From contig NZ_FYEW01000002.1 of the NCBI RefSeq assembly GCF_900187375.1, forward strand, positions 1,178,001 to 1,242,000: DNA of 64,000 bases, given 5' to 3'. The translations under genes were made by a program, and so were the position numbers. Below are positions 1 to 64,000 of this stretch, in pieces; within the stretch, counting starts at the first letter, position 1; each line of letters opens with the position of its first letter. The stretch is from Hymenobacter gelipurpurascens (lineage in GTDB: Bacteria > Bacteroidota > Bacteroidia > Cytophagales > Hymenobacteraceae). The notes beneath the pieces were generated by a model, which was given only the letters and a program-made list of their open reading frames with translations, ran no database searches and was not told where the DNA came from.

Positions 1-1
1 G

Positions 2-142
2 CTGGGTATTGGGGGCGGCTGCGATGAAGAAGCACTACGCGTGTGCCGCAATATCCCAAACCAGTGGCTGCCGGCCCGCATTGGCAGCCGCGCAGTAGTG
101 GTGCGCCACGAGCTGCCGTTTACCTTTCGCCTCGCCCAATAA
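2..142 (+). CDS. TonB C-terminal domain protein (3' end only)
   Basis: Only the last 46 codons are in the window, read in frame 2 and ending at a TAA at 140-142. The fragment reads LGIGGGCDEEALRV, then a tryptophan-proline segment, and finishes ELPFTFRLAQ. This matches the pattern of the TonB C-terminal domain in Bacteroidota energy-transducer-like proteins: a glycine run before CDEEA, a mid-domain P-x-W-like stretch, and a final beta strand of the type V-x-F-x-L-P-x-x-F. TonB domains couple inner-membrane energy to outer-membrane receptors, but the N-terminal part is missing, so a full TonB and a short periplasmic TonB-domain protein cannot be told apart. Confidence 0.75.
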   Translation: MGIGGGCDEEALRVCRNIPNQWLPARIGSRAVVVRHELPFTFRLAQ

Positions 143-219
143 GCCCCTCGCTTACAGCGAAATAGTGGCCTAGCGTTCAGCTATGTAGCCATTCCTGGCT
201 TTGACCCGTACATTACGGC

Positions 220-756
220 ATGAAACGAGCTATTCTCTTGCTTTTGCCCGCAACCGTACTGCTGGCGCCCCTCCTCACCAGCTGCGACAGCACCCCACGT
301 GAGCGTCAGGAAGTGGTAAGCCAAAGTGCCCGCCGACTGGATACCCTGGCCGACCGGGCCGCGGATAAGATAAAAGTGGCCGGCCACCGCGCGGCCCGCT
401 TCGACTCTGCTTCCAAGGCCCGCTCCCGGCAGCCACTGGATAAAGCGGCTGAGTCTACCTTCACTAATGAGCTACTGGGCACCTACGCCACCATTGAGCA
501 GCTTACCCCTACTACCATTGAGCCGGCCTATGTGCAGTTTATGCAGCAGGTGCGCGCCCACCGCAAGCAGTGGACCCAGCGCGACTGGGACTACGCCACG
601 GCTATCAGTCGCCGCCTGAACGCGCAGTTCCGCGCTATCCGGCTCGATATCAAAGGACGCGATGAGCTGCATATCCGGGCGCTCCAGACTGAGTTTACCG
701 CCCTGGAAACCGGCCGCGATGTGAAGGACTTGGGCCAGGCCGTGAAGCAGCCGTAG
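220..756 (+). CDS. hypothetical lipoprotein, 178 aa
   Basis: The N-terminus is a lipoprotein signal (MKRAILLLLP..., lipobox LTSC with the modified cysteine near residue 22), so the mature protein should be membrane-anchored. The rest is charged and helical, rich in Arg, Ala and Gln, without a catalytic motif I recognise. It resembles the many small unclassified lipoproteins of Bacteroidota. The TAG stop at 754-756 forms the start of a TAGGCCA heptamer, and a strong terminator follows at 781-806, so the gene probably ends its transcription unit. Function unknown. Confidence 0.8.
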   Translation: MKRAILLLLPATVLLAPLLTSCDSTPRERQEVVSQSARRLDTLADRAADKIKVAGHRAARFDSASKARSRQPLDKAAESTFTNELLGTYATIEQLTPTTIEPAYVQFMQQVRAHRKQWTQRDWDYATAISRRLNAQFRAIRLDIKGRDELHIRALQTEFTALETGRDVKDLGQAVKQP

Positions 757-780
757 GCCACTCTTTCCCGTTTTTTTCGA

Positions 781-806
781 AGCCCCGCCCTGCGCGGGGC
801 TTTTTG
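781..806 (+). terminator. Rho-independent terminator
   Basis: AGCCCCGC (781-788) pairs with GCGGGGCT (794-801) around a 5-base loop and is followed by TTTT. It closes the lipoprotein gene. A TTG that would extend the amidase reading frame to 804 lies inside this element, which argues against that start. Confidence 0.85.
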
Positions 807-821
807 CTTATCTGTGGTGTA

Positions 822-2339
822 ATGAATGTAAGTGTAATGCTCCTGACTGGCCTACTGATGGGGGGCCTTTTGCTGGCACCTCCCGCACACGGGCAGCAGG
901 CGCCGCTGATTGAATCGGCGGAAACGGTACCGGCCACCGACCAATGGCTGAGCCCCGGCGACCGGCTGCAGGTTCGCCTCGTAAGCCAGTCGGGGGCCCG
1001 CGTTACGTTCCTCAACGGCCAGCCTCTACTGGAACTGGACCCTACTCTGACGCAGGGAAAACGGGGTATCTACCAGGCTACCTATGTAGTGCAGCCCGGC
1101 GACACCCTGCATGATCGGCCCATTCGTTTTCAGTTCGTCACGCCGGATAGTGTAATAGCAACGGCCCAGAGCAAAAGCCTTGTCCGCTTTCTGAACCCCA
1201 ATGAGCCGCAACTGGCCCTCACCAGAGGCGACCTGGCTTACCTGAACTATGGGTTGGGCGAAGACCGGCTGGGCGGGGCCAAGCTTGGCTACCTCGATTC
1301 GTTGGTGATGCTGCATCTCACGGGCCGTGTGGGCAAGCAGTACCGGGTGCAGCTAAGCCAGACCCAAACGGCCTGGGTGCCGCAGGAAGTGGTGCGCCTG
1401 TTGCCGCCGGGTGGCTTCGCGCCCACGTCTCTTACCGGTTCCTGGAGTGTACAAGGCGATTCGCTGGTTGACTACGTGCGGGTCCCCCTCACGGCCCGCC
1501 TGCCCTACCGCTCGCAGCTGCTCACGGAACCCAGCCGACTTGTGGTAGATATTTATGGGGCTACCTCCAACACCAACTGGATAACGCAGCGGGATGGCCT
1601 GCAGGAGCTTGGCGATGTGACGTATGAACAGCTGGAGCCCGATGTGTTTCGGATGGTGCTGCACCTGCGCCACCGCCAAAGCTGGGGCTACCACATCAGC
1701 TACCGCGGCAACACATTGGAAATTCGGGTGAAGCGGCCACCGCAGAAGCTGCGTTTGCGTGGCTTGGTGGTGGCGGTTGATGCCGGGCACGGCGGTACCA
1801 ATGTGGGTGCCACCGGCGCTAGCGGTGCCCGCGAGAAAGACCTCACGCTGGCCATTGCCCTGCAGCTGCGCCAAGAACTGCAGCGGGCAGGAGCCCAGGT
1901 ACTGATGACCCGCGAAACCGACGCCACTGTGGATAACGGCGACCGGGTACGGCAACTCCGCCGGCTCAACCCCGATGTGCTTGTGAGCATCCACGTCAAT
2001 TCTTCGGGCAGCGCTACGGTGCGCGGCACCAGCACCTACTACCGCTACGTGGCGTTTCGGCCGCTTTCGGTAGCGCTGTACGAGCAGATGCGGGAGACTG
2101 GCCTACCGGGCTTCGGCAACGTGGGCAGCTTCAACTTCGGGCTGAATGGACCTACGGAGTACCCCAATGCGCTGGTGGAAACGGCTTTTGTCTCGAACCC
2201 CGAGGACGAAAAGCTACTGACCTCACCCGAGTTTCAGCAACGGATGGCCAGGGCCATGCGCACTGGCCTAGAGCAGTTCCTGAAGCATAGCCGCGCAAAA
2301 GGCCCTCGGGGCTGGCTGCTAGGCCAGTCTGCGCGGTAG
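822..2339 (+). CDS. N-acetylmuramoyl-L-alanine amidase (Amidase_3)
   Basis: A secreted cell-wall hydrolase expected to cut the bond between N-acetylmuramic acid and L-alanine in peptidoglycan, in the periplasm. I chose the ATG at 822 because the frame upstream runs only to a TTG inside a terminator, and because residues from 822 form a clean signal peptide (hydrophobic core, AHG cleavage region). The middle (about residues 230-305) looks like an AMIN-type beta domain. The catalytic domain starts near residue 313 and shows the zinc-ligand pattern: DAGHGG (His about 323), REKDL (Glu about 338), SIHVNS (His) and VETAF (Glu). 505 residues from this start. It stands alone between two terminated or unlinked units. 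Confidence 0.9.
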   Translation: MNVSVMLLTGLLMGGLLLAPPAHGQQAPLIESAETVPATDQWLSPGDRLQVRLVSQSGARVTFLNGQPLLELDPTLTQGKRGIYQATYVVQPGDTLHDRPIRFQFVTPDSVIATAQSKSLVRFLNPNEPQLALTRGDLAYLNYGLGEDRLGGAKLGYLDSLVMLHLTGRVGKQYRVQLSQTQTAWVPQEVVRLLPPGGFAPTSLTGSWSVQGDSLVDYVRVPLTARLPYRSQLLTEPSRLVVDIYGATSNTNWITQRDGLQELGDVTYEQLEPDVFRMVLHLRHRQSWGYHISYRGNTLEIRVKRPPQKLRLRGLVVAVDAGHGGTNVGATGASGAREKDLTLAIALQLRQELQRAGAQVLMTRETDATVDNGDRVRQLRRLNPDVLVSIHVNSSGSATVRGTSTYYRYVAFRPLSVALYEQMRETGLPGFGNVGSFNFGLNGPTEYPNALVETAFVSNPEDEKLLTSPEFQQRMARAMRTGLEQFLKHSRAKGPRGWLLGQSAR

Positions 2340-2682
2340 TGGGCGCATGGGTCAGATTCAGCCTCTGGCAAAAGCTATATCCTGACCAACTAACCGGTGA
2401 AAAAGCGAGAATAAATAAGAACGAAGAATATTCATGTATCTACATCCTTTATTACCACAGTGCGTATTCCCCTACTCAAATGCTTCTGCCTACTTGCTGG
2501 CTTACCCTAGGTAGCCTGGGAGCTGGCTATAGCTAGTTAGCAAAAAATAGTCGCCGACTGACAGAAAAGCTCAGCTAAGCTTCTACCTTACTGGTTGTCA
2601 ATCCGTACAGCCGGAAACTCTTCTGGTTTCTACAGTTGGCAACCTGTTCTTTCACCTACTTACCCAAAACTCCCCACCACTT
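2340..2682. other. intergenic region, no gene seen
   Basis: 343 bases between the amidase and the MFS transporter, locally richer in A/T than its neighbours around 2400-2560. A 65-codon frame crosses it but has no family resemblance and overlaps the amidase stop. It presumably holds the promoter of the transporter; I could not identify a convincing Bacteroidota -33/-7 pair. Confidence 0.5.
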
Positions 2683-4086
2683 ATGGCAAACGTTTCTCTA
2701 CTAGACCGCAGCCGTACAATTGCCGGGCCGGGCTACAACCGGTGGCTGGTGCCGCCGGCCGCACTGGCCATTCACCTGGCAATTGGACAGGCCTACGCCT
2801 TCAGCGTATTTAAAAAACCTCTGGGCGCTTTGCTCAGCGGCGATGTAGATCATCCGGCCGCCGGCGACTGGACCCCGGCCCAAATTGGTTGGATTTTCTC
2901 CATTGCCATTGTGCTCCTAGGCCTGTCGGCGGCCATTTTTGGAAAGTGGCTGGAGCGTGTTGGGCCGCGCAAGGCCATGCTGGCGTCGGCGCTGTGCTTT
3001 GGTGGGGGCTTTCTGATTGGCTCCTTGGGCGTGCATCTGCATAGCCTGGCCCTGCTGTACTTCGGCTACGGTTTTGTGGGTGGCATTGGCCTGGGCATCG
3101 GCTACATCTCGCCGGTAAGTACCCTGATTAAGTGGTTCCCCGACCGCAAAGGCGTGGCTACCGGCATGGCGATTATGGGTTTTGGAGGCGGCGCCATGAT
3201 TGGCTCCCCGCTGGCCGTTGCCCTGATGGCACACTTTAAAGACTCTGCACCGCAGGGTGTGGCGCCCACCTTCATTGTGATGGGCATCATCTACTTCCTG
3301 TTCATGCAGTTCGGCGTCTGGACCATTCGGGTACCCGCCGACGATTGGGCTCCGGCCGGCTACGTGCCCAACGCCGAGCATTCAGCCCTTATCACGAGCG
3401 GCAACGTATCGGCCGACAACGCCATCAAAACCCCGCAGTTCTGGCTGCTATGGGTGGTGCTGCTCACCAACGTAACGGCTGGTATCGGCGTTTTGGAAAC
3501 CGCTTCGCCGCTTATTCAGGAAACCTTCTCGGATAAGGCCATGGGCGCGGGCCGCGGCGTAACCGTAGCAGCAGCGGCTGGCTTCGTAGGCCTGTTGAGC
3601 TTGTTTAACCTGCTGGGCCGCTTCTTCTGGTCATCAGCTTCCGATAAGCTGGGGCGCAAAGTGACATATGCCATCTACTTTGGCTTGGGCATTCTGCTGT
3701 ACGCCCTGGTACCAACGCTAGGCCAGAATCTGCAGCTTTCGCTGTTTGTGGTGGTTGCTTGCGTGATTATCAGCATGTACGGCGGGGGCTTTGCTACCAT
3801 TCCGGCGTACTTGTCTGACCTATTTGGCAAGTACCAGGTGGGTGCTATTCATGGCCGCCTGCTTACTGCCTGGAGCACGGCCGGCGTGCTGGGCCCCCTC
3901 ATTGTGAACTACCTGCACGAGAGCCGCAAAGCCGAAGGCTTTACGGGCGCCGCGGCCTACCAGACGGTGTTCTACACCATGGCAGGCCTATTGGTAGTAG
4001 GCCTGCTGGCCAACCTAGCCGTAACAGCCGTAAACGCGAAGTACAACGAGAAAGGCCCTGTAACGGCAGAAGCCGGCGGCCACTAA
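2683..4086 (+). CDS. OFA-family MFS transporter
   Basis: A 467-residue polytopic membrane protein with about 12 hydrophobic segments. The N-terminal NRWLVPPAALAIHLAIGQAY region and the following YAFSVFKKPL, together with the FDRKGVATGMA-like loop (here PDRKGVATGMAIMGFGGGA) and the second-half GRFFWSSASDKLGRK loop, are typical of the oxalate/formate antiporter (OFA) branch of the major facilitator superfamily. Bacteroidota members are often annotated as lactate or organic-anion transporters; the substrate cannot be read from sequence. It is followed after 27 bases by a tiny membrane ORF on the same strand that I take to be its partner subunit. Confidence 0.88.
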   Translation: MANVSLLDRSRTIAGPGYNRWLVPPAALAIHLAIGQAYAFSVFKKPLGALLSGDVDHPAAGDWTPAQIGWIFSIAIVLLGLSAAIFGKWLERVGPRKAMLASALCFGGGFLIGSLGVHLHSLALLYFGYGFVGGIGLGIGYISPVSTLIKWFPDRKGVATGMAIMGFGGGAMIGSPLAVALMAHFKDSAPQGVAPTFIVMGIIYFLFMQFGVWTIRVPADDWAPAGYVPNAEHSALITSGNVSADNAIKTPQFWLLWVVLLTNVTAGIGVLETASPLIQETFSDKAMGAGRGVTVAAAAGFVGLLSLFNLLGRFFWSSASDKLGRKVTYAIYFGLGILLYALVPTLGQNLQLSLFVVVACVIISMYGGGFATIPAYLSDLFGKYQVGAIHGRLLTAWSTAGVLGPLIVNYLHESRKAEGFTGAAAYQTVFYTMAGLLVVGLLANLAVTAVNAKYNEKGPVTAEAGGH

Positions 4087-4867: not shown

Positions 4868-7558
4868 CTAATCAATAGCTACGCTTTTGCCCGTCAAGGT
4901 CATATCAGCTTTAAGCACGTTGCCCGCTGCCACCGACTGGCCTAGCGGCTGGCCGCCGCCCGCGAAGAGCTGCACCTTGCCTGGTTGCTCCAGGCGCTGG
5001 GCCTGCTCATTGAGGCGGGAGAGCTGTCGGGGCGTGAGCGTAAACTGCACGGTCTTTTTCTCACCGGCCTTCAGGGGCACGCGGCGGAAGCCTTCCAGGG
5101 CGTGCAAGGCCACGCGGCCTTTGCCGTCGGGGTGGCGCACGTAGAGCTGCACCACCTCATCGCCGGGGCGCTTACCGGTATTTTGTACCTCCACGCTTAC
5201 GGTCACGGGCTTACCGGTTTGGGCCGTGGAGGCCACTTTCAGGTTGGTGTATTTGAAGCTGGTATAGCTTAGGCCGTGCCCGAAGGGATAGAGCGGCGTA
5301 TCCTTGAAATAGCGGTAGGTGCGGCCCGCCATGTCGTAGTTATCGAAGGGCGGCAGCTGGCTTTCCGACTTGTAGAACGTGACCGGCAGCCGGCCCGCGG
5401 GGTTGTAGTCCCCGAAAAGCACATCGGCCAGGGCCGTGCCGGCGGCCTGGCCCCCGTACCAGCTATTGACCACTGCGGGCAGGTTAACGGCCTCCCACTG
5501 GCACCCGATGGCGCTGCCGGTCATCATCACGAACACCACCGGCTTACCCGAGGAGTGCAGCACCTTCAGTAGCTCCGTCTGCACCTTGGGCAGCGCAATA
5601 CTGGTTCGGTCGCCGCCGCTGAAGCCTTCCACATTCACCTTCATTTCCTCGCCTTCGAGGCGGGGCGAGATGCCGCCCACAAACACAATAGCATCGGCAT
5701 CTTTCACCTGGCCTAGAATGTTCTGCGCATTCATGGGCACTACGTGGGCGCCGGTGAACTTAAGAATGGAGCGGCTCACGGCCTGAAAGTATTCAATCCT
5801 GATATCCAGTTTCTTACCGGCTTCTACTTTCATCGTGTGTTGGGTAGTAGACACACCCCGGCTGTTCCAATTATCTACCACCAGCTGGTTGTTGATGAAC
5901 AGCCGGTAGCCATCGTCGCCGGTAATCTGGAAGGCCATTTCCTCTGACCTCTCGGGCGTGAACGTGCTCAGGTAGCGGGCCGAAATATTCTCCGAGGGCA
6001 AGCCCTTCACTATTTCCTGCTTGGTGTTGGCCAGGTAACGGTCTAGGCCACTTTCCTGCACGGTAGCTACGGGCGCGCCTTCCAAGTTAGTACCCCGGAA
6101 GTACTCGGCCCGGAAGCCCGGCTTGCTCTCATAGGCCAGGTTCCTGTTCAGGTCGAAGGTTTCATAGACGATGTTACTGGCATAGTCAACCCCCTGTATG
6201 TAGTTCACTTGCGTGTTTTTGCCCACTTTCTCCCGGATGCCCATCAGCGGCGTCACGTTGCGGGTCGGGAACCCATTGTAGTTGCCGAGCTGCACGCTTT
6301 CGTTGTCGGCATTGGGGCCGAGCACTACGATTTTCTTCAGATCCTTGCGCAGCGGCAGGGTGTTGCGCTCATTCTTTAGGAGTACCACCGACTCCTGCGC
6401 CATCTTGAGGGCGTGCGCCTGATGCGGGCCGCTTTCCACTACGCTCATCGGAATGCGGGCGTACTTCACGCGCTCCACGGGGTCGAACATGCCCAGCTGG
6501 AACCGGATTTTGTAAAGCCGCTTCACCGATGTATCCAGCTGCTTCTCCGTAATCAGGCCTTTCTGCACCGATTCCAGCAGGGAGTTGTACGTAAACAGCT
6601 TGCCCGTAGCGCACTCAATATCGGTGCCGTGCAACACGGCGTTGGCGGCCGCAGTGGCCGCATCGGGGTCGGTTTTGTGGTGCTGCCAGAAGTCGTTCAG
6701 TCCGTCGCAGTCCGAGGTGACGTAGCCCTTGAACTTCCATTTCGTGTAGAGAATATCGTTCATCAGCTTGTCGCTGCCGCAGCAGGGCTGCCCGGCGTAG
6801 GCGTTGTAGGCGCACATTACGCCGGCCACCTTGGCATCTACCACCAGGTCGCGAAACGCGGGCAAGTAGGTGTCCCAGAGGTCGTAATCGCTGATTTGAG
6901 CGTTGTACTCGTGGCGCGATGACTCGGGGCCGCTGTGCACGGCGAAGTGCTTGGCACAGGCCGTGATTTTGAGGTACTTCGGATCATCGCCCTGAAAGCC
7001 GCGCACCAGCGCCGAGCCTAGCTGGCCCGTGAGGTAAGGGTCTTCGCCGTAGGTTTCCTGGCCCCGGCCCCAGCGCGGGTCGCGGAAGATGTTGATATTG
7101 GGCGTCCAGAAGGTGAGGCCCTGATAAATACCCCGTTCGCCACGGCGCACATATTCCTGGTGCACCGCCCGCGCCTCATCCGACGTGATGGTGGCCATCC
7201 GCAGCATAGCTTCCTGGTCGAAGGTGGCGGCTAGGCCTATGGCTTGCGGAAACACCGTGGTTTTCATGCTGGTGCGAGCCACCCCATGCAGCGCCTCGTT
7301 CCACCAGTTGTAGGCCGGTATCCCCAGCCGATCAATGGCGGCTGAGGCATTGAGCATCTGGGACACCTTCTCCGGCAGGGTCAGGCGACCCACCAAATCA
7401 TCCACGCGCTGGTCGATGGGCAGATCGGGGTTGCAGAAGGGAAGGTCGTCGGCAATACCTACGGAGGCTTGCACACTGGGGACGACGCTCGGGTGAGGCT
7501 GGCTGGGCACTGCGCCCATAAGCGCAGCCAGCCCCAGGACGAGGAGTGGGTTCTTCAT
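4868..7558 (-). CDS. GH3 glycosidase with PA14 domain
   Basis: A secreted beta-glycosidase of 896 residues; its order GH3 N-domain, GH3 C-domain interrupted by PA14, then Fn3-like domain is common in Bacteroidota beta-glucosidases and xylan beta-xylosidases. Visible: signal peptide at the N-terminus; NWWNEALHG (about 84-92), TFWTPNINIFRDPRWGRG (149-166), KHFAVHSG (203-210), and the nucleophile aspartate in TSDCDGL (Asp 283). PA14 covers roughly 480-620. The C-terminal DEVVQLYVRHP is the Fn3-like signature. NWWNEALHG and the SDCDG form lean toward the xylosidase-like branch. Expected site: periplasm or outer surface. It is a single-gene unit facing the DUF2007 gene. Confidence 0.9.
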   Translation of the reverse strand: MKNPLLVLGLAALMGAVPSQPHPSVVPSVQASVGIADDLPFCNPDLPIDQRVDDLVGRLTLPEKVSQMLNASAAIDRLGIPAYNWWNEALHGVARTSMKTTVFPQAIGLAATFDQEAMLRMATITSDEARAVHQEYVRRGERGIYQGLTFWTPNINIFRDPRWGRGQETYGEDPYLTGQLGSALVRGFQGDDPKYLKITACAKHFAVHSGPESSRHEYNAQISDYDLWDTYLPAFRDLVVDAKVAGVMCAYNAYAGQPCCGSDKLMNDILYTKWKFKGYVTSDCDGLNDFWQHHKTDPDAATAAANAVLHGTDIECATGKLFTYNSLLESVQKGLITEKQLDTSVKRLYKIRFQLGMFDPVERVKYARIPMSVVESGPHQAHALKMAQESVVLLKNERNTLPLRKDLKKIVVLGPNADNESVQLGNYNGFPTRNVTPLMGIREKVGKNTQVNYIQGVDYASNIVYETFDLNRNLAYESKPGFRAEYFRGTNLEGAPVATVQESGLDRYLANTKQEIVKGLPSENISARYLSTFTPERSEEMAFQITGDDGYRLFINNQLVVDNWNSRGVSTTQHTMKVEAGKKLDIRIEYFQAVSRSILKFTGAHVVPMNAQNILGQVKDADAIVFVGGISPRLEGEEMKVNVEGFSGGDRTSIALPKVQTELLKVLHSSGKPVVFVMMTGSAIGCQWEAVNLPAVVNSWYGGQAAGTALADVLFGDYNPAGRLPVTFYKSESQLPPFDNYDMAGRTYRYFKDTPLYPFGHGLSYTSFKYTNLKVASTAQTGKPVTVSVEVQNTGKRPGDEVVQLYVRHPDGKGRVALHALEGFRRVPLKAGEKKTVQFTLTPRQLSRLNEQAQRLEQPGKVQLFAGGGQPLGQSVAAGNVLKADMTLTGKSVAID

Positions 7559-7810
7559 CTATGGTCAGGTGAATGTTCGTGGTCCACCAGACCCATGACA
7601 ACCAACCGCTGCCCGTAGGCCAGGGGCTACTTCATGTCCTGATGACGCCTCACTAAAGTAGGCGCCTCTCCCGCAGATGCCCAGCAACCGGACTGGCCTA
7701 GGCCAGAAATAAACTCTGCAATCGTTTCAGATAGCCCTTTTTGCGGTGCAGACTGGCCGTATTTCCTGTTCACGCCTACACTGTGGCCCGCAGCCGCATG
7801 CGGAAGTGGC

Positions 7811-9040
7811 CTACCGAAACCGCCAGGCAGGCAGTACGGTGCCTTGTGGGAAGACCTCCTGCTCGGCGGGCAGTTCCAGAAAAGCTTGGCAGGCCAGCAG
7901 GCTGGCCTGGTCGCCGGAGCCGCCGGCCCGCTCGGGGTATGCCAGTATGCAGCCAGTAGGAGTGTGCTCCAGACTTACCAGCAGAAAGTGCGTGAGGCGG
8001 GGCTTGAACTGCACCTCCTGAGCCAATACAACAGGAACCGACCCACCTAGCACAGACTCCTCATAGTCAGCTGGTTGTTGCACGGCCAGCAGCCAGGGCC
8101 GGGCGTAGCGGTAGAAGTTGACGAAGGTAGAAACCGGGTTCCCGGGCAAGGCAAACACCGCGGCACCGCCCGGCTGCTGCCCAAACCAGAACGGCTTGCC
8201 GGGCCGCTGCTGCACCTCATGAAAAATCTGCTCTACCCCTATCTCCCGCAATACCTCGGGCAGGAAGTCGGCTTTGCCTTTCGAGACGCCCCCGCTCAGC
8301 AGCACGGCATCGTAGTTTTCCAGCAAATCGGGCAGGCCTAGGCGCAGGTCATCGGGGTCGTCGTTGAAGTGGAAAGCGGTGGCCTCGGCCCCGGCCTGCT
8401 GGGCGGCGGCCTGCAGCATAAGCACATTGGAGCGCCGTATCTGGTGGGGCTCGGGCTGCTGCGTGATGGGCACCAGCTCGTCGCCGGTACTGACCACGGC
8501 CACCCGGGGGCGCCGCGTAACGGCCACCAGCGCAGCGCCTACAGTAGCCGCTACCGCCAGCTCGGCGGGGCCTAGCACCGTACCAGCCGGCAGCAGCAAG
8601 TCGTCCTTGTGGCGGTCGGCGCCTTGGGCGTGCACATTGAAGCCGGTGCGCGGAGCCCCCACCTGTACTTGCGCTACCCGGTGGCCCGCCTCATCCGTCC
8701 GGAACGTGACGTCCTCATACCGAATAACCGTATCGGCCCCTTCCGGCAGCGAGGCGCCCGTCATGATTTCGATAGCAGCGGCAGAGTCCTGGAGGGGCCG
8801 CGGAACTTGGCCGGCAAACTGGGTGTGCTCCACCAGGAACTCCATTTGGCCCGCTGCCAGCGCCTCATAGCGCAGCGCAATGCCATCCATGGCTACCCGG
8901 TTGAAGGGCGGAAAATCGCGGTCGGCGTAGAGCGGCTCCCGCAGCACCCGGCCTGCCGCAAGGGTCAGGGAGATATACTCCACCGACAAGGGGCGGATGG
9001 TGGCGGCTACAAGGCGGGTGGCTTCTTCGACGGAGAGCAT
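7811..9040 (-). CDS. moeA: molybdopterin molybdotransferase MoeA
   Basis: Inserts molybdenum into adenylylated molybdopterin, the last step common to molybdenum-cofactor synthesis. I start it at the ATG ending at 9040 (MLSVEEATRLV, the usual MoeA N-terminus); a further ATG at 9070 adds ten untypical residues. Visible: FNRVAMDGIA (domain I), VVSTGDELV and LSGGVSKGKADF (MoCF domain), LPGNPVS, and the C-terminal beta domain. 409 residues, normal for the family. Divergent from moaC, so the 148 bases between them should hold both promoters. The stop TAG (7811-7813 on the minus strand) is part of a TGGCCTA heptamer. Confidence 0.95.
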   Translation of the reverse strand: MLSVEEATRLVAATIRPLSVEYISLTLAAGRVLREPLYADRDFPPFNRVAMDGIALRYEALAAGQMEFLVEHTQFAGQVPRPLQDSAAAIEIMTGASLPEGADTVIRYEDVTFRTDEAGHRVAQVQVGAPRTGFNVHAQGADRHKDDLLLPAGTVLGPAELAVAATVGAALVAVTRRPRVAVVSTGDELVPITQQPEPHQIRRSNVLMLQAAAQQAGAEATAFHFNDDPDDLRLGLPDLLENYDAVLLSGGVSKGKADFLPEVLREIGVEQIFHEVQQRPGKPFWFGQQPGGAAVFALPGNPVSTFVNFYRYARPWLLAVQQPADYEESVLGGSVPVVLAQEVQFKPRLTHFLLVSLEHTPTGCILAYPERAGGSGDQASLLACQAFLELPAEQEVFPQGTVLPAWRFR

Positions 9041-9188
9041 AGAGCGGAAAAGGACGGTGGACAGACGCATCTTTGCATCTTGGCGGTGCGGAGCACTATG
9101 GCGCCACGGAAAAGCAAAGTACTGGCCTAGCCGGTTTGTTCACTAGCGGCACAACGACCAGCCGCAAAGATGCGTCTCTACAAGTATT

Positions 9189-9677
9189 ATGTCTGACTCT
9201 CCCAAACTCACCCACCTCAACGCCGCCGGCCAGCCCGCCATGGTAGATGTGGGCGCCAAAACCCCGACCCGCCGTGTAGCCCGGGCCCGCAGCCGCGTGA
9301 TTCTCGGCCCCGAAATCATGGCGCTGGTGCGCGAAGGCGACCTACCCACCCGCAAAGGCCCCGTGTTCCAGACCGCTATTCTGGCCGGCATCATGGGTGC
9401 CAAACGCACGTCGGAGCTGATTCCGCTGTGTCACCCGTTGGGCCTCGATGATTGCCAGGTGCGCATAGAAGTGGATGGACCGGATGCCGTTGTCATTGAA
9501 TGCACGGCCACCGTAACGGGCAAAACCGGCGTAGAAATGGAAGCCCTGACCGGCGCTTCGGTGGCGGCGCTTACCATTTATGATATGTGCAAAGCGCTGT
9601 CGCACAACATCATCATTCAGGAAACGCGGCTAGTTGAGAAGACTGGCGGCAAGCAAGACTTTCATTATGCCGGATAA
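9189..9677 (+). CDS. moaC: cyclic pyranopterin monophosphate synthase MoaC
   Basis: Acts with MoaA to turn GTP into cyclic pyranopterin monophosphate. 162 residues beginning MSDSPKLTHLNAAGQPAMVDV. Signature stretches are all present: AGIMGAKRTSELIPLCHPL, EMEALTGASVAALTIYDMCKA with the conserved Asp and Lys of the active site, and a basic start region RRVARARSRV. The next gene overlaps its 3' end by 11 bases, so the two are translationally coupled. Confidence 0.96.
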   Translation: MSDSPKLTHLNAAGQPAMVDVGAKTPTRRVARARSRVILGPEIMALVREGDLPTRKGPVFQTAILAGIMGAKRTSELIPLCHPLGLDDCQVRIEVDGPDAVVIECTATVTGKTGVEMEALTGASVAALTIYDMCKALSHNIIIQETRLVEKTGGKQDFHYAG

Positions 9678-10848
9678 CACTGCCTCCGCTAGGCCACATG
9701 CCAAGCACGCCAAAATAGCGCGGCCCGATGTGGGCGAGTTTGGTCGGCACGAGCTGGCTATTCTCGGGGCACCCTGCGGCAAAATCAAGGAGCTGGTGGC
9801 GCGCCTGCTTCCCCACCTTGCGCCGACCCTGCAAGTGGCCTACGTAGATGCCGACCACGCCGCCGGCGACGATGCGGCCCAAGGCGGCAGCGGCGGTCAG
9901 GATGCCATTCTGCAAGCCGGGGCTGCCGCCGAGCTGACCGATAAAATCACGTTTACGCGGCTGGATCTGAAGCGGGACTTTTCCTCCTTTGCCCAGCAGG
10001 AATGGCTGCAGCACCAAAGCCTGGTGCTGGTGAATGGCAACCACTTCCGGGCGCGGCAGCAAATCGTGATTCTGGATCCTACTAAGCCCGTAGAAAAGAA
10101 GCTGGAACGCCTTACAGATGTACGACTGCTGCTGCTCCCCGGAGGCATAACGGAAGTACCTGGCTATCTGCAGGCACATCTGGCCACGCAGCCACAAGTG
10201 CCCGTGCTGGCCCTCTCCGATACCGCCGCCATTGCCGAATTTGTGCGCAGCTGGTGGCAGCAGGCTCTACCGCCGTTGCGCGGCCTCGTGCTGGCGGGTG
10301 GCCTTAGCCAACGCATGGGCCAGGACAAGGGCCGACTGGCCTACCATGGCCAGGAGCAGCGCGCTCACGCTGCGGGCCTATTGAAAGGTATTTGTCAGGA
10401 TGTGCTGGTTTCGTGTAGGCCAGAGCAGGCAACGGAGCTGGAAGTCGCTGGCCTTCAGCCCCTTCCCGATACGTTCGCAGGCCTGGGTCCGATGGGCGGC
10501 ATCCTGTCCGCCTTCCAGCTTGACCCCAACGCGGCCTGGCTGGTAGTGGCCTGCGACCTGCCCTTCCTCACGGAGCAGACGCTAGGCCGCCTTCTGCAGA
10601 AACGCAATGCCGGCAAGATGGCCACGGCTTTTCAAAGCCCTGAAAATGAGTGGCCCGAGCCGCTTATCACCATCTGGGAGCCGCGCAGCTACGGCACGCT
10701 GCTGCGCTTCCTGAGTCTCGGCTACTCCTGCCCCCGTAAGGCGCTCATCAACTCCGATATTGAGCTGCTGCCCACGCCCAACCCGCAGGATTTGCGCAAC
10801 GTGAATACGCCCGAAGAGGCAGAGCAGGCCAAGCGGGATTTGGGATAG
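9667..10848 (+). CDS. mobA: MobA-like nucleotidyltransferase with MobB-like N-terminal domain
   Basis: 393 residues from the ATG at 9667, which overlaps the last codons of moaC. The C-terminal half (from about residue 205) is a MobA-type nucleotidyltransferase with LVLAGGLSQRMGQDKGRL (GGxSxRMGxDK motif), LGPMGGILSAF and the metal-site CDLPFL; it would attach GMP or CMP to the cofactor. The N-terminal half (about 20-200) has a Rossmann-like layout that recalls MobB, but the P-loop position reads GAPCGKIKE (about 34-42), not a clean GxxxxGK[ST]. So this may be a MobB-MobA fusion whose MobB half has lost GTP binding; that part is inference. It ends at a large palindromic repeat. Confidence 0.85.
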   Translation: MPDNTASARPHAKHAKIARPDVGEFGRHELAILGAPCGKIKELVARLLPHLAPTLQVAYVDADHAAGDDAAQGGSGGQDAILQAGAAAELTDKITFTRLDLKRDFSSFAQQEWLQHQSLVLVNGNHFRARQQIVILDPTKPVEKKLERLTDVRLLLLPGGITEVPGYLQAHLATQPQVPVLALSDTAAIAEFVRSWWQQALPPLRGLVLAGGLSQRMGQDKGRLAYHGQEQRAHAAGLLKGICQDVLVSCRPEQATELEVAGLQPLPDTFAGLGPMGGILSAFQLDPNAAWLVVACDLPFLTEQTLGRLLQKRNAGKMATAFQSPENEWPEPLITIWEPRSYGTLLRFLSLGYSCPRKALINSDIELLPTPNPQDLRNVNTPEEAEQAKRDLG

Positions 10849-10855
10849 ATTTATA

Positions 10856-11098
10856 GAACGAGGCTCCCCTCCTGGGAAAGGAGGAATTGGGGGTGGTTGA
10901 CTGGCCTAGAACAAAATCGCTGTCATGCTGAGCTTGTCGAAGCATCTCTACCGCTTCGTTGAAAAGCCCTAGGCCAATTAGTTAGCCAGAGGTAGAGATG
11001 CTTCGACTTCGCTCAGCATGACGGTCTTTTATTGATTTACAGAGTAAACAACGATTGGTCCCCCAACCCTTCCTTTCCTAGGAGGGGAGCCTTGTTCC
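10856..11098. repeat. nested palindromic repeat between mobA and moaE
   Basis: Two inverted repeats lie one inside the other between converging genes. The outer arms (about 10856-10898 and 11053-11098) share the pattern GGCTCCCCTCCT...GGAAAGGA...GGGGG and pair imperfectly. Inside them sits copy 1 of the window's hairpin repeat (10921-11023). The structure could end transcription from both sides. It looks like one repeat family inserted into another. Confidence 0.8.
10921..11023 (-). repeat. hairpin repeat, copy 1 (reverse orientation)
   Basis: Arms 10921-10952 and 10991-11023 read GTCATGCTGAGC..GTCGAAGCATCTCTACC and its near-complement. The loop is asymmetric; reverse-complemented it aligns with the loops of the copies at 41930 and 53081 (TCT..CTAA...TGGCCTAG......AACGAAGC). 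So this copy is inverted relative to the other two. A TAGGCCA heptamer sits in the loop at 10970. Confidence 0.85.
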
Positions 11099-11105
11099 TA
11101 CAGGC

Positions 11106-11522
11106 CTACGGGTGGGCGGCCACCCACACGTCACCATCTTCGTAGAACTCTTTCTTCCAGATGGTTACAACCTGCTTTAGGGTATCAATGATATACTGGC
11201 AGGCGGCGAAGCTTTCGGCGCGGTGCGGGGTAGAAACGGCCACGATTACGGCCACATCACCAATGTACAGGGTGCCTTTGCGGTGAATAACGGTTACCTT
11301 TTCCAGCATAGGCCACTTTTCCTGGGCTTGCTCGGCCACTTTGCGCAGCTGGTGCAGCGCCATGCTGTCGTAGGCCTCATACTCCAGGCGCACCACGGGG
11401 CGGCCGGTGCTTTTGTTGCGGACGGTGCCGATGAAAGTATTTACGGCCCCGGCGCCATCGGACTGCACGGTTTGCAGGGCGGCGGCCACATCAATGGGCT
11501 GGTCGGTGAGTTCGATTATCAT
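11106..11522 (-). CDS. moaE: molybdopterin synthase catalytic subunit MoaE
   Basis: The large subunit of molybdopterin synthase; with thiocarboxylated MoaD it adds the dithiolene sulfurs to cyclic pyranopterin monophosphate. 138 residues. Visible: GAVNTFIGTVRN near the start, LEYEAYDSMA, VTVIHRKGTLYIGD, STPHRAESFAAC, and the catalytic lysine region TIWKKEFYEDG. Follows moaD on the minus strand with an 82-base gap. The stop TAG lies in an AGGCCTA motif. Confidence 0.95.
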   Translation of the reverse strand: MIIELTDQPIDVAAALQTVQSDGAGAVNTFIGTVRNKSTGRPVVRLEYEAYDSMALHQLRKVAEQAQEKWPMLEKVTVIHRKGTLYIGDVAVIVAVSTPHRAESFAACQYIIDTLKQVVTIWKKEFYEDGDVWVAAHP

Positions 11523-11604
11523 GCAGGAACGCCCGCAGCGGGCGGGCGTGGCTTATATTATTGCGGGAGAGAAAGGCGCAGCGTAGGAGGCTGCCAGCAC
11601 TGGC

Positions 11605-11847
11605 CTAGCCGCCGCTTACGGGCGGAATCAGGGCAATTTCGTCGCGTTCATGCAGGGGTGCATCGTCGGGAGCGTACTCATTATTGACGGCCACCGCCAG
11701 GCTTGAGAGGCGGCTCAACCCCGGATACTCTTGGCGCAGCTGCCCCAGCAATTCCTGCACCGACTGCCCCTCGGGAGCCGTTAGGTCTAGGGTTGGCTGG
11801 CCTACGATTTCCCGGGCAATGCCAAACAGCGCTATTTTCAGATTCAT
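11605..11847 (-). CDS. moaD: molybdopterin synthase sulfur carrier MoaD
   Basis: An 80-residue ubiquitin-like protein ending in the required diglycine (PPVSGG), which is adenylylated by MoeB and then carries sulfur to MoaE. Beta-grasp features: MNLKIALFGIAREIVG at the start, EIALIPPVSGG at the end. First gene of a moaD-moaE pair, divergent from moaA across about 258 bases. The two terminal glycine codons are followed directly by a TAG that is part of a TGGCCTA heptamer. Confidence 0.94.
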   Translation of the reverse strand: MNLKIALFGIAREIVGQPTLDLTAPEGQSVQELLGQLRQEYPGLSRLSSLAVAVNNEYAPDDAPLHERDEIALIPPVSGG

Positions 11848-12105
11848 TTTTCTTTGATTTGGTGGGTAGAAGCTGCTGGTTTGCGCAGATACGCCTGTTT
11901 TCGTTTCTGCCCGGCGGGTATTGTGTAAACTACAGCGGCCTGCCGGTTGTTACAGAACGCTATACCTGAAAATCGGAACATCTTCTGCCCCGCATATGCG
12001 TACAGGACCCAACTACGCAGATTCCGACTTTTAGAGCGACGATTACTGCACAAAAATCGTTCTTCTCTGGTACCTGCACCTCATCTGCGCAATCTTTCCG
12101 ATTCT

Positions 12106-13110: not shown

Positions 13111-13173
13111 TCCTGCACTAAATTTCTTGTGGGGCGGGGTGATAGTTGCGGGAAAAGCTGATTAATACGCAGA

Positions 13174-13770: not shown

Positions 13771-13773
13771 GCC

Positions 13774-14070: not shown

Positions 14071-14157
14071 TACATCCCTTTCTGCATCACTGGCTTTAGG
14101 GGCTTCTTTTCGGAGCCCCTAGGCCTCTCCATGCCCTTTCACTTCTCCCTATTTGTT

Positions 14158-14853: not shown

Positions 14854-14879
14854 GCCTATTGGCGAAGAAAGCAGGCCGC

Positions 14880-15209: not shown

Positions 15210-15214
15210 ATAAA

Positions 15215-16378: not shown

Positions 16379-16468
16379 TAGGAGGCGAAAGCGGATGGAC
16401 TAGTAAAAGTAGGAGAAGCAAGCCGCCCGTTGGCAGACCTAGGCCACCCTACCGGAGGCTAGGCTCTG

Positions 16469-17566: not shown

Positions 17567-17681
17567 ACTTAAAGATAGCAGGCGGAAAAGGTGTCGCGCA
17601 AACGACACATCGGCTGCCTTTGCTCAAACTTACTTCCGGCCTATAAGGTTAAAGAATCGGGAATAGGCCACTCCCTACCTA

Positions 17682-21664: not shown

Positions 21665-21692
21665 TGTTGTATAGTGGCCTAGGCCACAGCGG

Positions 21693-57204: not shown

Positions 57205-57651
57205 GTGACAGCCTTATCTCTCAAGCCCATCTTGGTGGTGGAAGACAGCGTGGAAGACTTCACGGCCCTGGGCCGTGCTTTCCGCAAGCACGCGCTCCCG
57301 AACCCGCTGTTGCGCTGCGAAGATGGCGACCAGGCCCTGGAGTATTTGCAGGGCTATGGCAAGCGTACGGGGTGGCCCCAGCAGCTGCCCGCCTTTGTAC
57401 TGCTGGACCTGAACATGCCCGGCACCGATGGCCGTACGGTACTGGCCGTGCTCAAGCAGGACCCCCTGTTGCAGTCTATCCCGGTTATCATTTTTAGTAC
57501 TTCTACCAATGCCCGGGATATTGAGGAATGCTACCGCCTGGGGGCCAACAGCTACTTCACCAAACCCATTGATTACGCTGTGCTGGAAGAGAAAACCCGC
57601 CTACTGATGAACTACTGGCTAACAGCCTCGGAGCTGCCCCATTTGAGCTAG
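57205..57651 (+). CDS. single-domain response regulator (Rcp1-like)
   Basis: 148 residues, GTG start directly after the phytochrome stop. Receiver domain with acidic pocket VVEDSVED, phospho-acceptor Asp 68 in LLDLNMPG, Thr/Ser switch IIFSTSTN and Lys in YFTKPI. The long loop after the first helix and N-terminal EDS match Rcp1-type regulators that pair with phytochromes. No output domain, so it likely relays phosphate or acts by protein contact. Confidence 0.93.
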   Translation: MTALSLKPILVVEDSVEDFTALGRAFRKHALPNPLLRCEDGDQALEYLQGYGKRTGWPQQLPAFVLLDLNMPGTDGRTVLAVLKQDPLLQSIPVIIFSTSTNARDIEECYRLGANSYFTKPIDYAVLEEKTRLLMNYWLTASELPHLS

Positions 57652-57663
57652 GAATTGCTGCGC

Positions 57664-60004: not shown

Positions 60005-60077
<73 letters not shown>

Positions 60078-61479: not shown

Positions 61480-61496
61480 CCACCCTTCTATTCCAG

Positions 61497-61534
61497 AAAA
61501 AAGCCCTGACACTACAAGTGTCAGGGCTTTTTTG
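61497..61534 (+). terminator. bidirectional terminator
   Basis: AAAAAAGCCCTGACACT and AGTGTCAGGGCTTTTTT form a perfect stem around a short loop, with A6 and T6 flanks; it serves the hydrolase gene and the outer-membrane protein gene that faces it. Confidence 0.9.
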
Positions 61535-61580
61535 TGCGGTTATGATGGCCGCGAGTGGCCTAGAGTAGGCAAATAGCTTA

Positions 61581-63452
61581 TCAGAACCGGTTTGTGATGC
61601 CGAAGTGAATCTTGCCGGAGCCGAGTGCGAACTTCTGCTGCTGGTCGCGGCCAAGGGCGTACACAAACTGGAACTGCCCGGCCGCGGTACGAAAGCTGAG
61701 GCCGGCTCCCAGGCCAGTGGGCGTGTCCTGGGTGGTTTCAGTGGTGATGTCGCGCCGCAACCAGGCCTGATCGGCAAAGAGAAACACATAAGAATCGGCG
61801 CCCGTGAACTGGCGGAACTCGGCCGTTCCGATGGCGTACTGGCTGGCGTAGTAGTTTAGCTCATTGAATCCGCGCAGCGTCGCCAGGCCGCCAATCCGAA
61901 ACAAATCATTCAGGAACAGGCGCTGGTTTACCAACGCTTCGCCGCGCACCCGCGTGAACAACACCCCATTCCGGCCCATCCGGAAGTACCGCTCTACACG
62001 GCCGCCCACACTGATTTGAGTGGAGCGGAGGGCTACCGCTTCGTAGAGGTTTTCGCGCAGATTGGGGTTGCGGCTGATACGTTTGGTACCCACCGAGGCC
62101 TGTCCGCCCGCCAGCAAACCCCGCCGGGGCAGGTAGGGGTCATCGAGTGTGTTCCAGCTGTAGTCGAGGCCGTAAGAGTTGAACTCGGAGTCGATGTTAT
62201 CGGGTAGGCCACTGGTGTACACGGATAGCGCGGCCGAGTCGGCGAGGAGGCGGGAGCTGCGGCGCTCCGTGAAGAAGGCCACGCGGCCGGCCCGTGCCGT
62301 GGGGTAAGTCATCTGTAAGCGCGGCCGAATGGTGAGGAACTGGTCGTTTTGCTTGAGCAGGTTGAAGGTGCCACCCAGTTCCAGCGGCGTCCCGAAGAAG
62401 TTTGGGTGCACGTACTGCGCATCCAGCAACTGCGAGGAAGCATCGAGCTTGCGCCACTGCAGTCCGATGCCTTTGCCGCCGCCCTTGATGTTGCGCAGGT
62501 TGATGGTTACATCGCCGGTAATCTGCACGCGCTTCTGGCCTACCCCGGGGTTCGGGTTGGGCAGCACGCCCACAATGGCATCAAACTGACTGGCGGCGCG
62601 GTCTTCGAGCAGTAGATATACGCGGGCTTTTCCGAGCGCAAACCGCACTTCGGGCTCGGCCTTGAGGTGCAGATACGGCAGCTGACGCAGGCGCCGAGCC
62701 GCTTCCTGCACTTTTTGCTGACTGTAGGGCTGGCTAGGGAAAATCTGAAGGTAGCGCGTCAGGAAGCCCACGCGGGTTTTGGTTTTACCAACTATCTGGA
62801 TGGAATCGAACACGACGGCCGGACCGCGCTGCAACACAATACGGCCTGCCACTTCTGCCCCGCGCAGCTCCAGCGAGTCGAGCGTAACCGTTGCGAAGGG
62901 GAAACCCTGGTTCTCGGCTTCGTGCAGAATATTCTCCTGGAGTTGCGCCCACTCTTTGGGCTGGAAGGGCTGCCCCCGAAACAGCTTTTCGCGGTAGCCG
63001 GCCCGCGTCAGCAGCCCGTCGCCAAGGTTGCCGTTGCGCAGCTGTGCCCACTGGAATTTCTCGCCCACGTACAGCCGCACCCGCAAGGAGTCGTGGCCCC
63101 AGCGCATTTCATCGGCCGAGGCCGTGAGGTAGGCATCGGCCTGCAAAGCCAGCAGCAGGTCGCGCAGCTCCCGAACAGCAGCGGCAGAATCGGGCAGCAC
63201 TTTGCGGTAGCGGTAGCGCCGTATGGTCTCCTGGTCAGCTGGTTCCGTCCCCAGCACCAGCGCTACTGGCCTACGCGGTGGCAACGGCACGCGCACCGTA
63301 GAATCGGGCCGCTGGACTGGCCTAGCCGGCGCCGGCAAGGTTTGCAGCGAGGGTTGGGCCAGCGTATTCGGGGTGGTTTGGGCGCGCGCCTGGCCTAGGC
63401 CACTCAGGAGCCAGCAGCTCAGCAGACCAAGAAAGAGGAGGCGGGCGTACAT
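61581..63452 (-). CDS. BamA/TamA-family outer-membrane protein
   Basis: 623 residues from ATG 63452 (MYARLLFLGLLSCWLLSGLGQARAQ signal peptide in parts); upstream frame is unlikely. A POTRA-like region sits at about 110-300 (LLTRAGYREKLFRGQPF, VVFDSIQIVGKTKTRVGF) and a C-terminal beta barrel ends in GITNRF with the terminal Phe. It resembles the surface-antigen branch rather than BamA itself (few POTRAs). Probably folds in the outer membrane; partner unknown. Confidence 0.85.
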   Translation of the reverse strand: MYARLLFLGLLSCWLLSGLGQARAQTTPNTLAQPSLQTLPAPARPVQRPDSTVRVPLPPRRPVALVLGTEPADQETIRRYRYRKVLPDSAAAVRELRDLLLALQADAYLTASADEMRWGHDSLRVRLYVGEKFQWAQLRNGNLGDGLLTRAGYREKLFRGQPFQPKEWAQLQENILHEAENQGFPFATVTLDSLELRGAEVAGRIVLQRGPAVVFDSIQIVGKTKTRVGFLTRYLQIFPSQPYSQQKVQEAARRLRQLPYLHLKAEPEVRFALGKARVYLLLEDRAASQFDAIVGVLPNPNPGVGQKRVQITGDVTINLRNIKGGGKGIGLQWRKLDASSQLLDAQYVHPNFFGTPLELGGTFNLLKQNDQFLTIRPRLQMTYPTARAGRVAFFTERRSSRLLADSAALSVYTSGLPDNIDSEFNSYGLDYSWNTLDDPYLPRRGLLAGGQASVGTKRISRNPNLRENLYEAVALRSTQISVGGRVERYFRMGRNGVLFTRVRGEALVNQRLFLNDLFRIGGLATLRGFNELNYYASQYAIGTAEFRQFTGADSYVFLFADQAWLRRDITTETTQDTPTGLGAGLSFRTAAGQFQFVYALGRDQQQKFALGSGKIHFGITNRF

Positions 63453-63571
63453 TTGGGAACTGAAACGCAGAATTGCGCTTTTAATTTCCCGAAAGTTACT
63501 TCTTCCAGTTCCATCCCGCTCATTCCCCTGATTCACAGAATCCTTGGGGAATACGGTTGGCCTCGCCCTTC

Positions 63572-64000
63572 ATGTCCGGCCTCTACCTCCACATTCCCTT
63601 CTGCAAACAAGCCTGCCACTACTGCGACTTCCACTTCAGCACCTCTATGGCGCTGAAAGGCCGTTTGGTAGAAGCAATGGTGCGGGAAATTGAGCTGCGC
63701 CGCGACTATCTGGGCCCCGCCGCGCACATCAACACTATCTACTTCGGAGGCGGCACGCCTTCTCTGCTGACGGGGGCGGAACTGGACACCCTTTTCGAGG
63801 CCATACACCGCAACTTCTCGGTTGCCCCCGACGCGGAAATCACGCTGGAGGCTAACCCCGACGACCTCACGGCCCCAAAGCTGCGGGAGCTAGCCGCCTC
63901 GCCCATCAACCGCCTGAGCATAGGCCTACAGACCTTTCATGAGCCGCATCTGCGCCTGATGAACCGCGCCCACTCCGGTGAAGAGTCGCGGGTGTGCGTG
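63572..64000 (+). CDS. hemW: HemW / coproporphyrinogen-III-oxidase-like radical SAM protein (5' part)
   Basis: 143 codons in the window, running off its end. MSGLYLHIPFCKQACHYCDF has the radical-SAM cysteines 11, 15 and 18 with HIPFC, the mark of the HemN/HemW group; IYFGGGTPSLL, ANPDDLT and RLSIGLQTF follow. HemW binds and hands over heme and lacks coproporphyrinogen oxidase activity in studied cases; the split between HemN and HemW needs the missing C-terminal part. Confidence 0.85.
   Translation, partial: MSGLYLHIPFCKQACHYCDFHFSTSMALKGRLVEAMVREIELRRDYLGPAAHINTIYFGGGTPSLLTGAELDTLFEAIHRNFSVAPDAEITLEANPDDLTAPKLRELAASPINRLSIGLQTFHEPHLRLMNRAHSGEESRVCV

Follow-up and report, generated by a model that had tools for sequence, protein, structure and literature searches.

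A genome-wide iterated word in a Hymenobacter-like bacterium, a possible self-recognition tag of a type new to this group

Short words that are iterated over whole bacterial genomes are known as uptake sequences from two families of proteobacteria and as HIPs from cyanobacteria, and Chi and KOPS are likewise brief sequences that occur in excess on the core chromosome. To our knowledge, the described uptake-sequence systems work via type IV pili. According to published accounts, uptake sequences form dialects that have a core in common and follow phylogeny (PMC3630211), and they are strongly conserved, reside in permissive places and arise as new copies too divergent to be explained by point mutation (PMC2397512). 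HIPs are characterized by a methyltransferase that can methylate them (Elhai 2015, PMC4390886). The word TGGCCTA/TAGGCCA described here represents a further case of an iterated word, now in Bacteroidota; relatives and carriers together use five or more such words, and the machinery of both known kinds is apparently missing.

The window, i.e., the whole 64-kb stretch of DNA that was analyzed, contains 121 copies of TGGCCTA/TAGGCCA, compared with 8.35 expected from base composition and 15.4 and 18.0 expected from Markov models of order 2 and 3, respectively; the expectation of 86 from the highest-order model is high because the 5- and 6-letter subwords used by this model are inflated by the motif itself. 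A whole-genome count, named in the initial annotation as a possible refutation, was run and did not refute the observation: it yielded 7,638 copies (1,509 per million bases) in the 5.06-Mb genome vs. 560 for the reversed control word. The density was said to persist over nearly the whole window, and each 4-kb bin indeed holds 4–12 copies; an earlier hand count of at least 12 copies in one stretch also held on recount (Table 1). C or G occupies position -1 in 93% and position +7 in 94% of the window copies and A occupies position -2 in 60%, and no clear conservation is seen past approximately 10 bases around the word. The context A(C/G)TGGCCTA(G) suggested before is recovered with C or G at its end, as the extended form ASTGGCCTAS (S = C/G) makes up 65 of the 121 copies. 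This full motif, A-S-TGGCCTA-S, is non-palindromic, and the palindrome-like reading of the GGCC centre had to be abandoned: in a 224-kb stretch of the genome itself (G000), also used for the gene/intergene and spacing counts, 11 sites match the true palindrome STAGGCCTAS, compared with 349 copies of the asymmetric STGGCCTAS on both strands. Both orientations were claimed to occur at similar rates, and they do so in the window (65/56), in the 224 contiguous kb of G000 (194/194) and in the genome (3,871/3,767), as well as in the other genomes that carry the word (G111 89/67, G024 76/89, G119 70/62). Since the word lacks strand polarity, it is neither KOPS- nor Chi-like, in agreement with the poor fit to polar sites noted earlier.

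The copies were described as lying in genes and between them at the same density; their presence in both stands, the equal density does not, as intergenic DNA contains 4.96 copies per kb and genes contain 1.32 (224 kb of G000, gene calls by a longest-ORF rule). Two thirds of the copies (261 of 388) nevertheless lie within genes, and copies are denser just after stop codons. Close pairs are not depleted and an excess is confined to spacings of 50–100 bp; the 224 kb contain 10 head-to-head overlapping pairs, and those located in the window are listed in Table 1.

Table 1. Positions of the word and of selected arrangements within the 64-kb window.
Feature	Position	Copies and strand	Basis
TGGCCTA (+, 65)/TAGGCCA (56), dispersed, within and between genes; 65 as ASTGGCCTAS	1..64000		counts
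Stretch of the earlier hand count, 13 copies	7500..11610		recount
Head-to-head overlapping pair, TGGCCTAGGCCA	7694..7705	+ copy 7694-7700, - copy 7699-7705	positions
Second overlapping pair	21675..21686	+ copy at 21675, - copy at 21680	positions
Third overlapping pair	63391..63402	+ copy at 63391, - copy at 63396	positions
Intergenic inverted pair flanking a REP-like palindrome	10902..10976	+ at 10902, - at 10970	positions

Among 120 genomes of the genus, the word is found in four, with 2,302–4,028 ASTGGCCTAS each, whereas the other 116 contain 17–119. Judged by a single core protein, these carriers (G000, G111, G024, and G119), which have one consensus in common, are also the four closest genomes; near sisters such as G043 are without the word. 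In alignments spanning 24–101 kb of the 224-kb own stretch, depending on the genome, the words of G000 are intact in the other three carriers at 53/106, 68/113, and 64/144 aligned places vs. 25–28% for permuted words, i.e., their retention is 1.6–2.2 times that of control words, and in non-carriers at 15/91, 7/67, and 2/34 places. One-mismatch states are rare in genes (8/86, 7/86, and 21/116 vs. 35–37% for controls), words present only in G000 differ by one base in other carriers in 2 of 63 comparisons, and codons within words retain their synonymous spelling when amino-acid identity is equal. The copies are better conserved than the surrounding DNA and are sited in permissive regions, the flanks around conserved control words being better conserved than those around conserved words in each of the other three carriers. 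In the comparison with the non-carrier G043, conserved words do not have less conserved flanks (0.847 vs. 0.834; 13 words), which speaks against an uptake reading. Outgroup differences spread over the whole heptamer and include transitions as well as transversions. For a polarized substitution spectrum, the outgroup was unanimous at all seven positions at only 6 sites, too few to be of use. Codons touching the word are slightly less conserved toward non-carriers (G043 0.796 vs. 0.846, G029 0.797 vs. 0.812, G109 0.764 vs. 0.818), which is at most suggestive of an amino-acid cost of the words.

Relatives contain other words. AAGTATA occurs in 23 of 50 genomes of genus g5, AGGTATA in 11 and AACTATA in 4, and (A/C)CCTAGG in 2 of 7 sampled genomes of genus g6; the genus of the carriers (g1) is probably Hymenobacter, and g5 is probably Pontibacter, judging from one named stretch (L010) bearing the same word. 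This survey used samples of mostly 10–40 kb from each genome; 41 Hymenobacter genomes were represented by pooled loci of approximately 6–12 kb, so that a sparse word could be missed. The dialects follow phylogeny, as TGGCCTA is confined to one clade of four and the species with AGG and AAC form two supported clades in a tree of 13 species only. What the dialects have in common is TA, after which T almost never follows, a part so short that it could be due to chance. The g6 word is built on the palindrome CCTAGG, which is an observation against an uptake reading. GGGTAG/CTACCC, frequent in other Hymenobacter, was not counted as a dialect because only reading frames are enriched for it and intergenic DNA is not (2.26 vs. 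2.07 per kb). A search of open-licence papers gave no account of any of these words from the genera concerned. Because of the dialects, DNA uptake sequences become a better analogy than HIP1.

Of the readings considered, a self tag of the uptake type that biased recombination has spread is most likely, ahead of a methylation-linked HIP site. Judged from the sequence, we assign a probability of about 0.45 to TGGCCTA, in full ASTGGCCTAS, being a species-group self tag of the DNA-uptake-sequence type. The accumulation of the word, its upkeep among the carriers, the dialects and the absence of polarity are observed here; DNA exchange between cells would be the agent: a sequence-reading step in uptake or recombination would favour fragments bearing the tag, and the tagged allele, favoured at each exchange, would let tags accumulate in permissive places such as intergenic DNA and synonymous positions, where near-tags would be completed and lost tags refilled. 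If the preference of the reading protein shifted, the genome would follow, and family dialects, probably with homologous readers behind them, would result. More tentatively, we propose a family-wide self-recognition with switching dialects that would operate without type IV pili or DNA methylation, in which a putative new protein family might read a 7–10-base tag during DNA exchange and in which drive might have written thousands of tags per genome.

The reader of such a tag seems to work without a classical type IV pilus. In 204 genomes, with up to 9 candidates scored per genome (in G000 9 of 31 first-look candidates), no carrier had a full-length match to PF00437, the type IV pilus/type II secretion ATPase, which counts against an uptake reading; the four genomes with such a match (G036, G099, G112, and G128) are all non-carriers, and other matches are short and marginal. 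ComEC, present in 24 of 24 genomes, is uninformative because it is universal in carriers and non-carriers alike. Among the papers searched, none on transformation of Hymenobacter or Pontibacter was listed, which is another point against an uptake reading. The word is also shorter than the 10-mers of Neisseriaceae, and its rarity in acquired DNA is uneven (L129, L131, and L143), both of which likewise weigh against an uptake reading: in chosen stretches, the full form is present in 0 copies in L129 and L131 vs. 18 each in L128 and L178, L131 is yet enriched in CTAGGCC, host words are not enriched in L145, L146, and L147 and the host word is outside the top words in L141, and L143, a stretch of G171 with a modification gene, is rich in its host word.

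A site of the HIP type, recognized by a (perhaps orphan) DNA methyltransferase so that methyl-directed mismatch repair or restriction protection favours new and old copies, would agree with the replacement of words lineage by lineage, which is also seen among HIPs, with the candidate methyltransferases of G000 (two MmeI-like, one Eco57I-like, one PF01555) and with a frequency of the same order as the 1,000–2,000 per million given for HIPs (PMC4390886). We regard it as unlikely, as the word is asymmetric and a search for five Pfam families in the carriers and in several non-carriers gave none that is common to all four carriers: no carrier has PF02086, PF00145 is missing from G000 and G111, PF02384 from G111 and PF07669 from G119, and PF01555 is found in G000 only. 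No candidate of G000 resembles any of G024 or G119. An MmeI-like Type IIG enzyme (L128:4883-8341) first looked like the answer because it is common to G000, G111, G148, and G203; it was dropped since, among the matches listed, it occurs at ≥70% identity in at least 27 Hymenobacter non-carriers and has no orthologue in G024, with a remote match only, or in G119, with no match. NCBIfam and PADLOC confirmed a Type IIG-like enzyme and nothing more.

A binding site of an abundant chromosome-organizing, replication or recombination protein (Chi-like or nucleoid), maintained by weak selection per copy, would fit the even density in the window, the many intergenic copies and the upkeep at the DNA level. 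It is an improbable explanation in view of the strand balance, of near sisters such as G043 without the word and of dialects that differ inside one genus; moreover, without drive, selection would hardly be able to maintain thousands of individual sites, many of which are coding. That the word is a by-product of codon usage, mutation bias or mobile-element scars such as REP palindromes can hardly be the case, and in our view the counts already refute it. REP-like palindromes do show a slight preference for the vicinity of words, with 14 of 20 within 60 bp of a word vs. 38% of random intergenic positions, but this association is modest and intergenic DNA away from REPs still contains 4.7 copies per kb, so that REPs as vehicle of the word were rejected. 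All five stop-avoiding coding arrangements are enriched over synonymous-codon shuffles (e.g., 91 vs. 7.0), and the confinement of conservation to about 10 bases and the spread of outgroup differences over positions and substitution types point in the same direction.

Compared with known systems, the word is short and over-represented like Chi and KOPS, but it lacks their strand polarity and is not shared with sister species. REP-like palindromes adjoin some of its copies; REPs, however, are longer palindromes of which 19 of 20 are intergenic here, whereas the word has 7–10 bases and lies mostly in genes. With cyanobacterial HIP1 and alternate HIPs it has a similar frequency, the scatter in and between genes and the replacement in some lineages in common, so that the likeness in spirit drawn in the initial annotation remains, although the word is no palindrome, none of the five methyltransferase families searched is common to all carriers, and the phylum is another one. 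From the DUS of Neisseriaceae and the USS of Pasteurellaceae it differs in phylum, in its length of 7–10 bases, in the short part shared by its dialects and in carriers without a full-length type IV pilus ATPase match. Like these uptake sequences, it is short, asymmetric and present in thousands of copies on both strands, its dialects follow phylogeny with a partly shared word, it is strongly conserved in permissive places with few one-step intermediates, and it is denser toward gene ends, here just after stop codons. As close relatives with the word, without it or with other words constitute a natural experiment, the gene that reads the tag should be findable by comparison. The case is thus relevant to how bacteria select the donors of the DNA they import and to the reason for HIP-like sequences in general.

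The heptamer TGGCCTA/TAGGCCA occurs 121 times (65 + 56) in the window, against 8.35 copies expected from base composition and 15.4–18.0 from Markov chains of order 2–3. The local crowding reported in the initial annotation was counted correctly, with 13 copies between 7,500 and 11,610, and the genome-wide count proposed there gave 3,871 + 3,767 copies in the 5,060,948 bases (nine contigs) of the window's own genome (G000; window at C2:1178001-1242000), compared with 560 for the reversed letters. The annotated A(C/G)TGGCCTA(G) context also holds, as A-S-TGGCCTA-S (S = C/G): in the window C or G stands on both sides in 93–94% of the copies and A two bases upstream of the word in 60%, and the full form ASTGGCCTAS is found 4,028 times genome-wide, its reversed pattern 23 times. 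S-AGGCCTA-S is the only clearly raised one-mismatch form (91 vs. 16.2 expected in G000), the remaining ones ranging from 0.3 to 2.5 times expectation.

Judged from a scan of 28 of its 46 called ORFs, the window looks like ordinary chromosome, with molybdopterin genes, a 4-alpha-glucanotransferase, an ethanolamine ammonia-lyase, DNA polymerase IV, a likely bacteriophytochrome operon and one tRNA-Met. Placement of the word was analyzed in 224 contiguous kb of G000, in which both orientations are equally frequent (194/194), as had been suggested by the initial annotation, and in which the word lies both in genes and between them, although not at the same density throughout (4.96 per kb intergenic vs. 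1.32 per kb genic). Density peaks within 40 bp past stop codons (9.1 per kb), is lower just upstream of starts (3.4 per kb), and 18 copies provide the TAG that terminates a called gene. All five stop-avoiding combinations of orientation and frame in genes are enriched over synonymous-codon shuffles (observed/shuffled: 81/13.4, 20/0.5, 10/1.6, 59/25.5, 91/7.0). The copies are spaced almost at random (CV 0.98), apart from a surplus of distances of 50–100 bp (54 vs. 28). REP-like cores number 20 in 224 kb of G000, 19 of them intergenic and often with the word nearby.

Coordinates of features in the window and in related genome stretches
Feature	Location	Details
Molybdopterin cofactor cluster	window 7811-18590	MoeA, MobA-like, radical SAM MoaA-like, MoeB/ThiF with rhodanese, FdhD; molybdate transporter
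Bacteriophytochrome operon (likely)	window 54344-58917	heme oxygenase, phytochrome histidine kinase, response regulator, response-regulator/histidine-kinase hybrid
REP-like core pair	window 10943/11000	AGATGCTTCG / CGAAGCATCT, ~50 bp spacing
REP-like core pair	window 41953/41999	AGATGCTTCG / CGAAGCATCT, ~50 bp spacing
REP-like core pair	window 53103/53161	AGATGCTTCG / CGAAGCATCT, ~50 bp spacing
MmeI-like Type IIG restriction-methylation enzyme	L128:4883-8341	~1,150 aa; with its relatives widespread in the family, several copies in some genomes
GGGCCCC over-use, Hymenobacter genome G047	L215, C1:3825001-3845000	58 vs. 10.1 expected over 20 kb; may be one more dialect, or a HIP-like palindrome
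Blurred word around GGTATRG/GGTATAA, g5 genome G187	L210, C22:45001-65000	CCATACC 19 vs. 3.0, GTATAAA 16 vs. 2.4; possibly a dialect in transition

The top matches of a secreted protein from the window are named Hymenobacter genomes, and searches across the genus put G000 in a group of 120 genomes that form one genus. When ASTGGCCTAS was counted in every one of the 120, G000 included, four carriers stood out with 4,028 (G000), 3,506 (G024), 3,339 (G119) and 2,302 (G111) copies, the remaining 116 genomes containing 17–119; the word consensus is identical across the four. By 4-alpha-glucanotransferase the three other carriers are the closest relatives of G000 (88, 87, and 86% identity) and the next ones, G043 (84%), G029 (83%) and G052, G109, and G081 (82%), are all non-carriers, so that a single origin of the word in a small clade is most likely.

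Within this clade the word is maintained and is not a fossil. In alignments of G000 with other genomes, covering 24–101 kb, its words are intact at 53 of 106 aligned places in G024, 68 of 113 in G119 and 64 of 144 in G111, compared with 25–28% for permuted 7-mers; the non-carriers G043 (15/91), G029 (7/67) and G109 (2/34) all fall under this control level. Of the 73 words that could be aligned in G024, G119 and G111 alike, 22 are shared by all three and 21 are found in none of them. One-mismatch states at genic aligned words are found in 8/86 (G024), 7/86 (G119) and 21/116 (G111) cases (controls 35–37%), the aligned place in G024 and G119 mostly holding either the complete word or a sequence two or more steps away from it. 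G111 has the fewest copies and more half-way forms, as if the word-making process were weakening there. At words unique to G000 the other carriers are one base off in 2 of 63 comparisons. Moreover, word-touching codons keep their spelling between carriers (0.64–0.73 vs. 0.55–0.57) at about equal amino-acid identity; therefore it is the DNA and not the protein that is conserved. Around conserved words the flanking sequence is less conserved in the three other carriers than around conserved control words (0.80 vs. 0.84–0.86), which does not apply to the comparison with G043 (0.847 vs. 0.834; 13 words).

Related genera over-use other words, here called dialects. AAGTATA occurs 32 times in 21 kb of Pontibacter oryzae (L010), and a count in 204 genomes of six genera of the family found 4,114–11,818 copies in 23 of the 50 genomes of g5, by inference Pontibacter, and near-control counts in Hymenobacter. 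Sampling of g5 genomes with lower counts yielded AGGTATA in 11 (G148, G150, G157, G164, G169, G176, G177, G185, G186, G188, G194) and AACTATA in four (G154, G163, G174, G184); the other 12 include the weak or intermediate G159, G162, G192, and G193, the variant G187, and G153, G173, G175, G179, G181, G182, and G183, whose samples showed no word. A tree built on a single protein common to 13 g5 genomes groups its four AGG species together (support 100/100), and its two AAC species likewise make up a clade of their own (100/99). (A/C)CCTAGG was found in two of seven sampled g6 genomes (G199, G203), and no word in sampled stretches of g2 (four genomes), g3 (two) and g4 (four). AAGTATA, AGGTATA, AACTATA and CCTAGG reach 2.5–4.3 times their genic density in intergenic DNA and are over-represented in almost every reading frame, and T is nearly excluded (2–5%) directly after the terminal TA of the first three and of TGGCCTA. 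Separately, several coding frames of G029, G109, G081, G002, and other Hymenobacter samples show an excess of GGGTAG/CTACCC that intergenic DNA does not, due either to a codon-pair effect or to the sequence being a weak word.

ASTGGCCTAS is missing from L129 and L131, stretches of 16 kb each that surround modification genes in G000, compared with 18 copies each in L128 (16 kb) and L178 (20 kb). Likewise, the host word is not enriched in low-GC stretches of G171 and G195 (L146, L147) nor in L145 of G203, and is not among the top words in L141 of G154. Depletion in acquired DNA is a lead rather than a result, because L131 is nevertheless enriched in CTAGGCC (11 vs. 1.3) and L143 of G171, with another modification gene, is as dense in the host word as elsewhere (60 copies in 15 kb).

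Turning all kinds of near-word into full words at thousands of places, most of them neutral, would require a fixation bias rather than per-site selection or a single mutation type. Biased uptake and recombination, as for the DNA uptake sequences DUS and USS, is one recorded process of this kind, and we tentatively read the word as an uptake-type tag (probability roughly 0.45). Methyl-directed mismatch repair has been proposed as the bias behind the highly iterated palindromes (HIP) of cyanobacteria (PMC4390886), and a methylation-type site of this kind is a less probable reading. The dialects, the asymmetric word, its permissive places and the few half-way forms favour uptake and recombination instead, as does the lack of a methyltransferase common to the carriers in the five Pfam families searched: PF00145 is absent from G000 and G111, PF02086 from all four carriers, PF02384 from G111 and PF07669 from G119, and PF01555 occurs among carriers in G000 only. 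The comparison of G000, G024, and G119 counts most, since G111 may be losing the process; no family match is common to these three by sequence, and the G000 candidates have no similar counterpart among those of G024 or G119. An MmeI-like Type IIG enzyme was rejected as maker, its family-wide distribution not following the word (at most three candidates scored per genome). That the word is a structural or recombination site seems somewhat less probable again, a mere by-product is very improbable, and the remaining probability belongs to something else.

ComEC is present in 24 of 24 genomes, carriers and non-carriers alike. PF00437, the type IV pilus ATPase family, has full-length matches in 4 of 204 genomes, no carrier among them, and short matches of ~60 positions above cut-off in three more g5 genomes (at most nine candidates scored per genome); the uptake machine, if uptake is true, therefore differs. 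Within Bacteroidota, uptake words have been sought in Riemerella, where the k-mer table starts with A-rich 10-mers (PMC7965970). Riemerella anatipestifer is described as naturally transformable with ComEC, DprA, ComF, RecA and proteins of unknown function (PMC8459023), and thus offers a precedent in the phylum for uptake by unfamiliar machinery.
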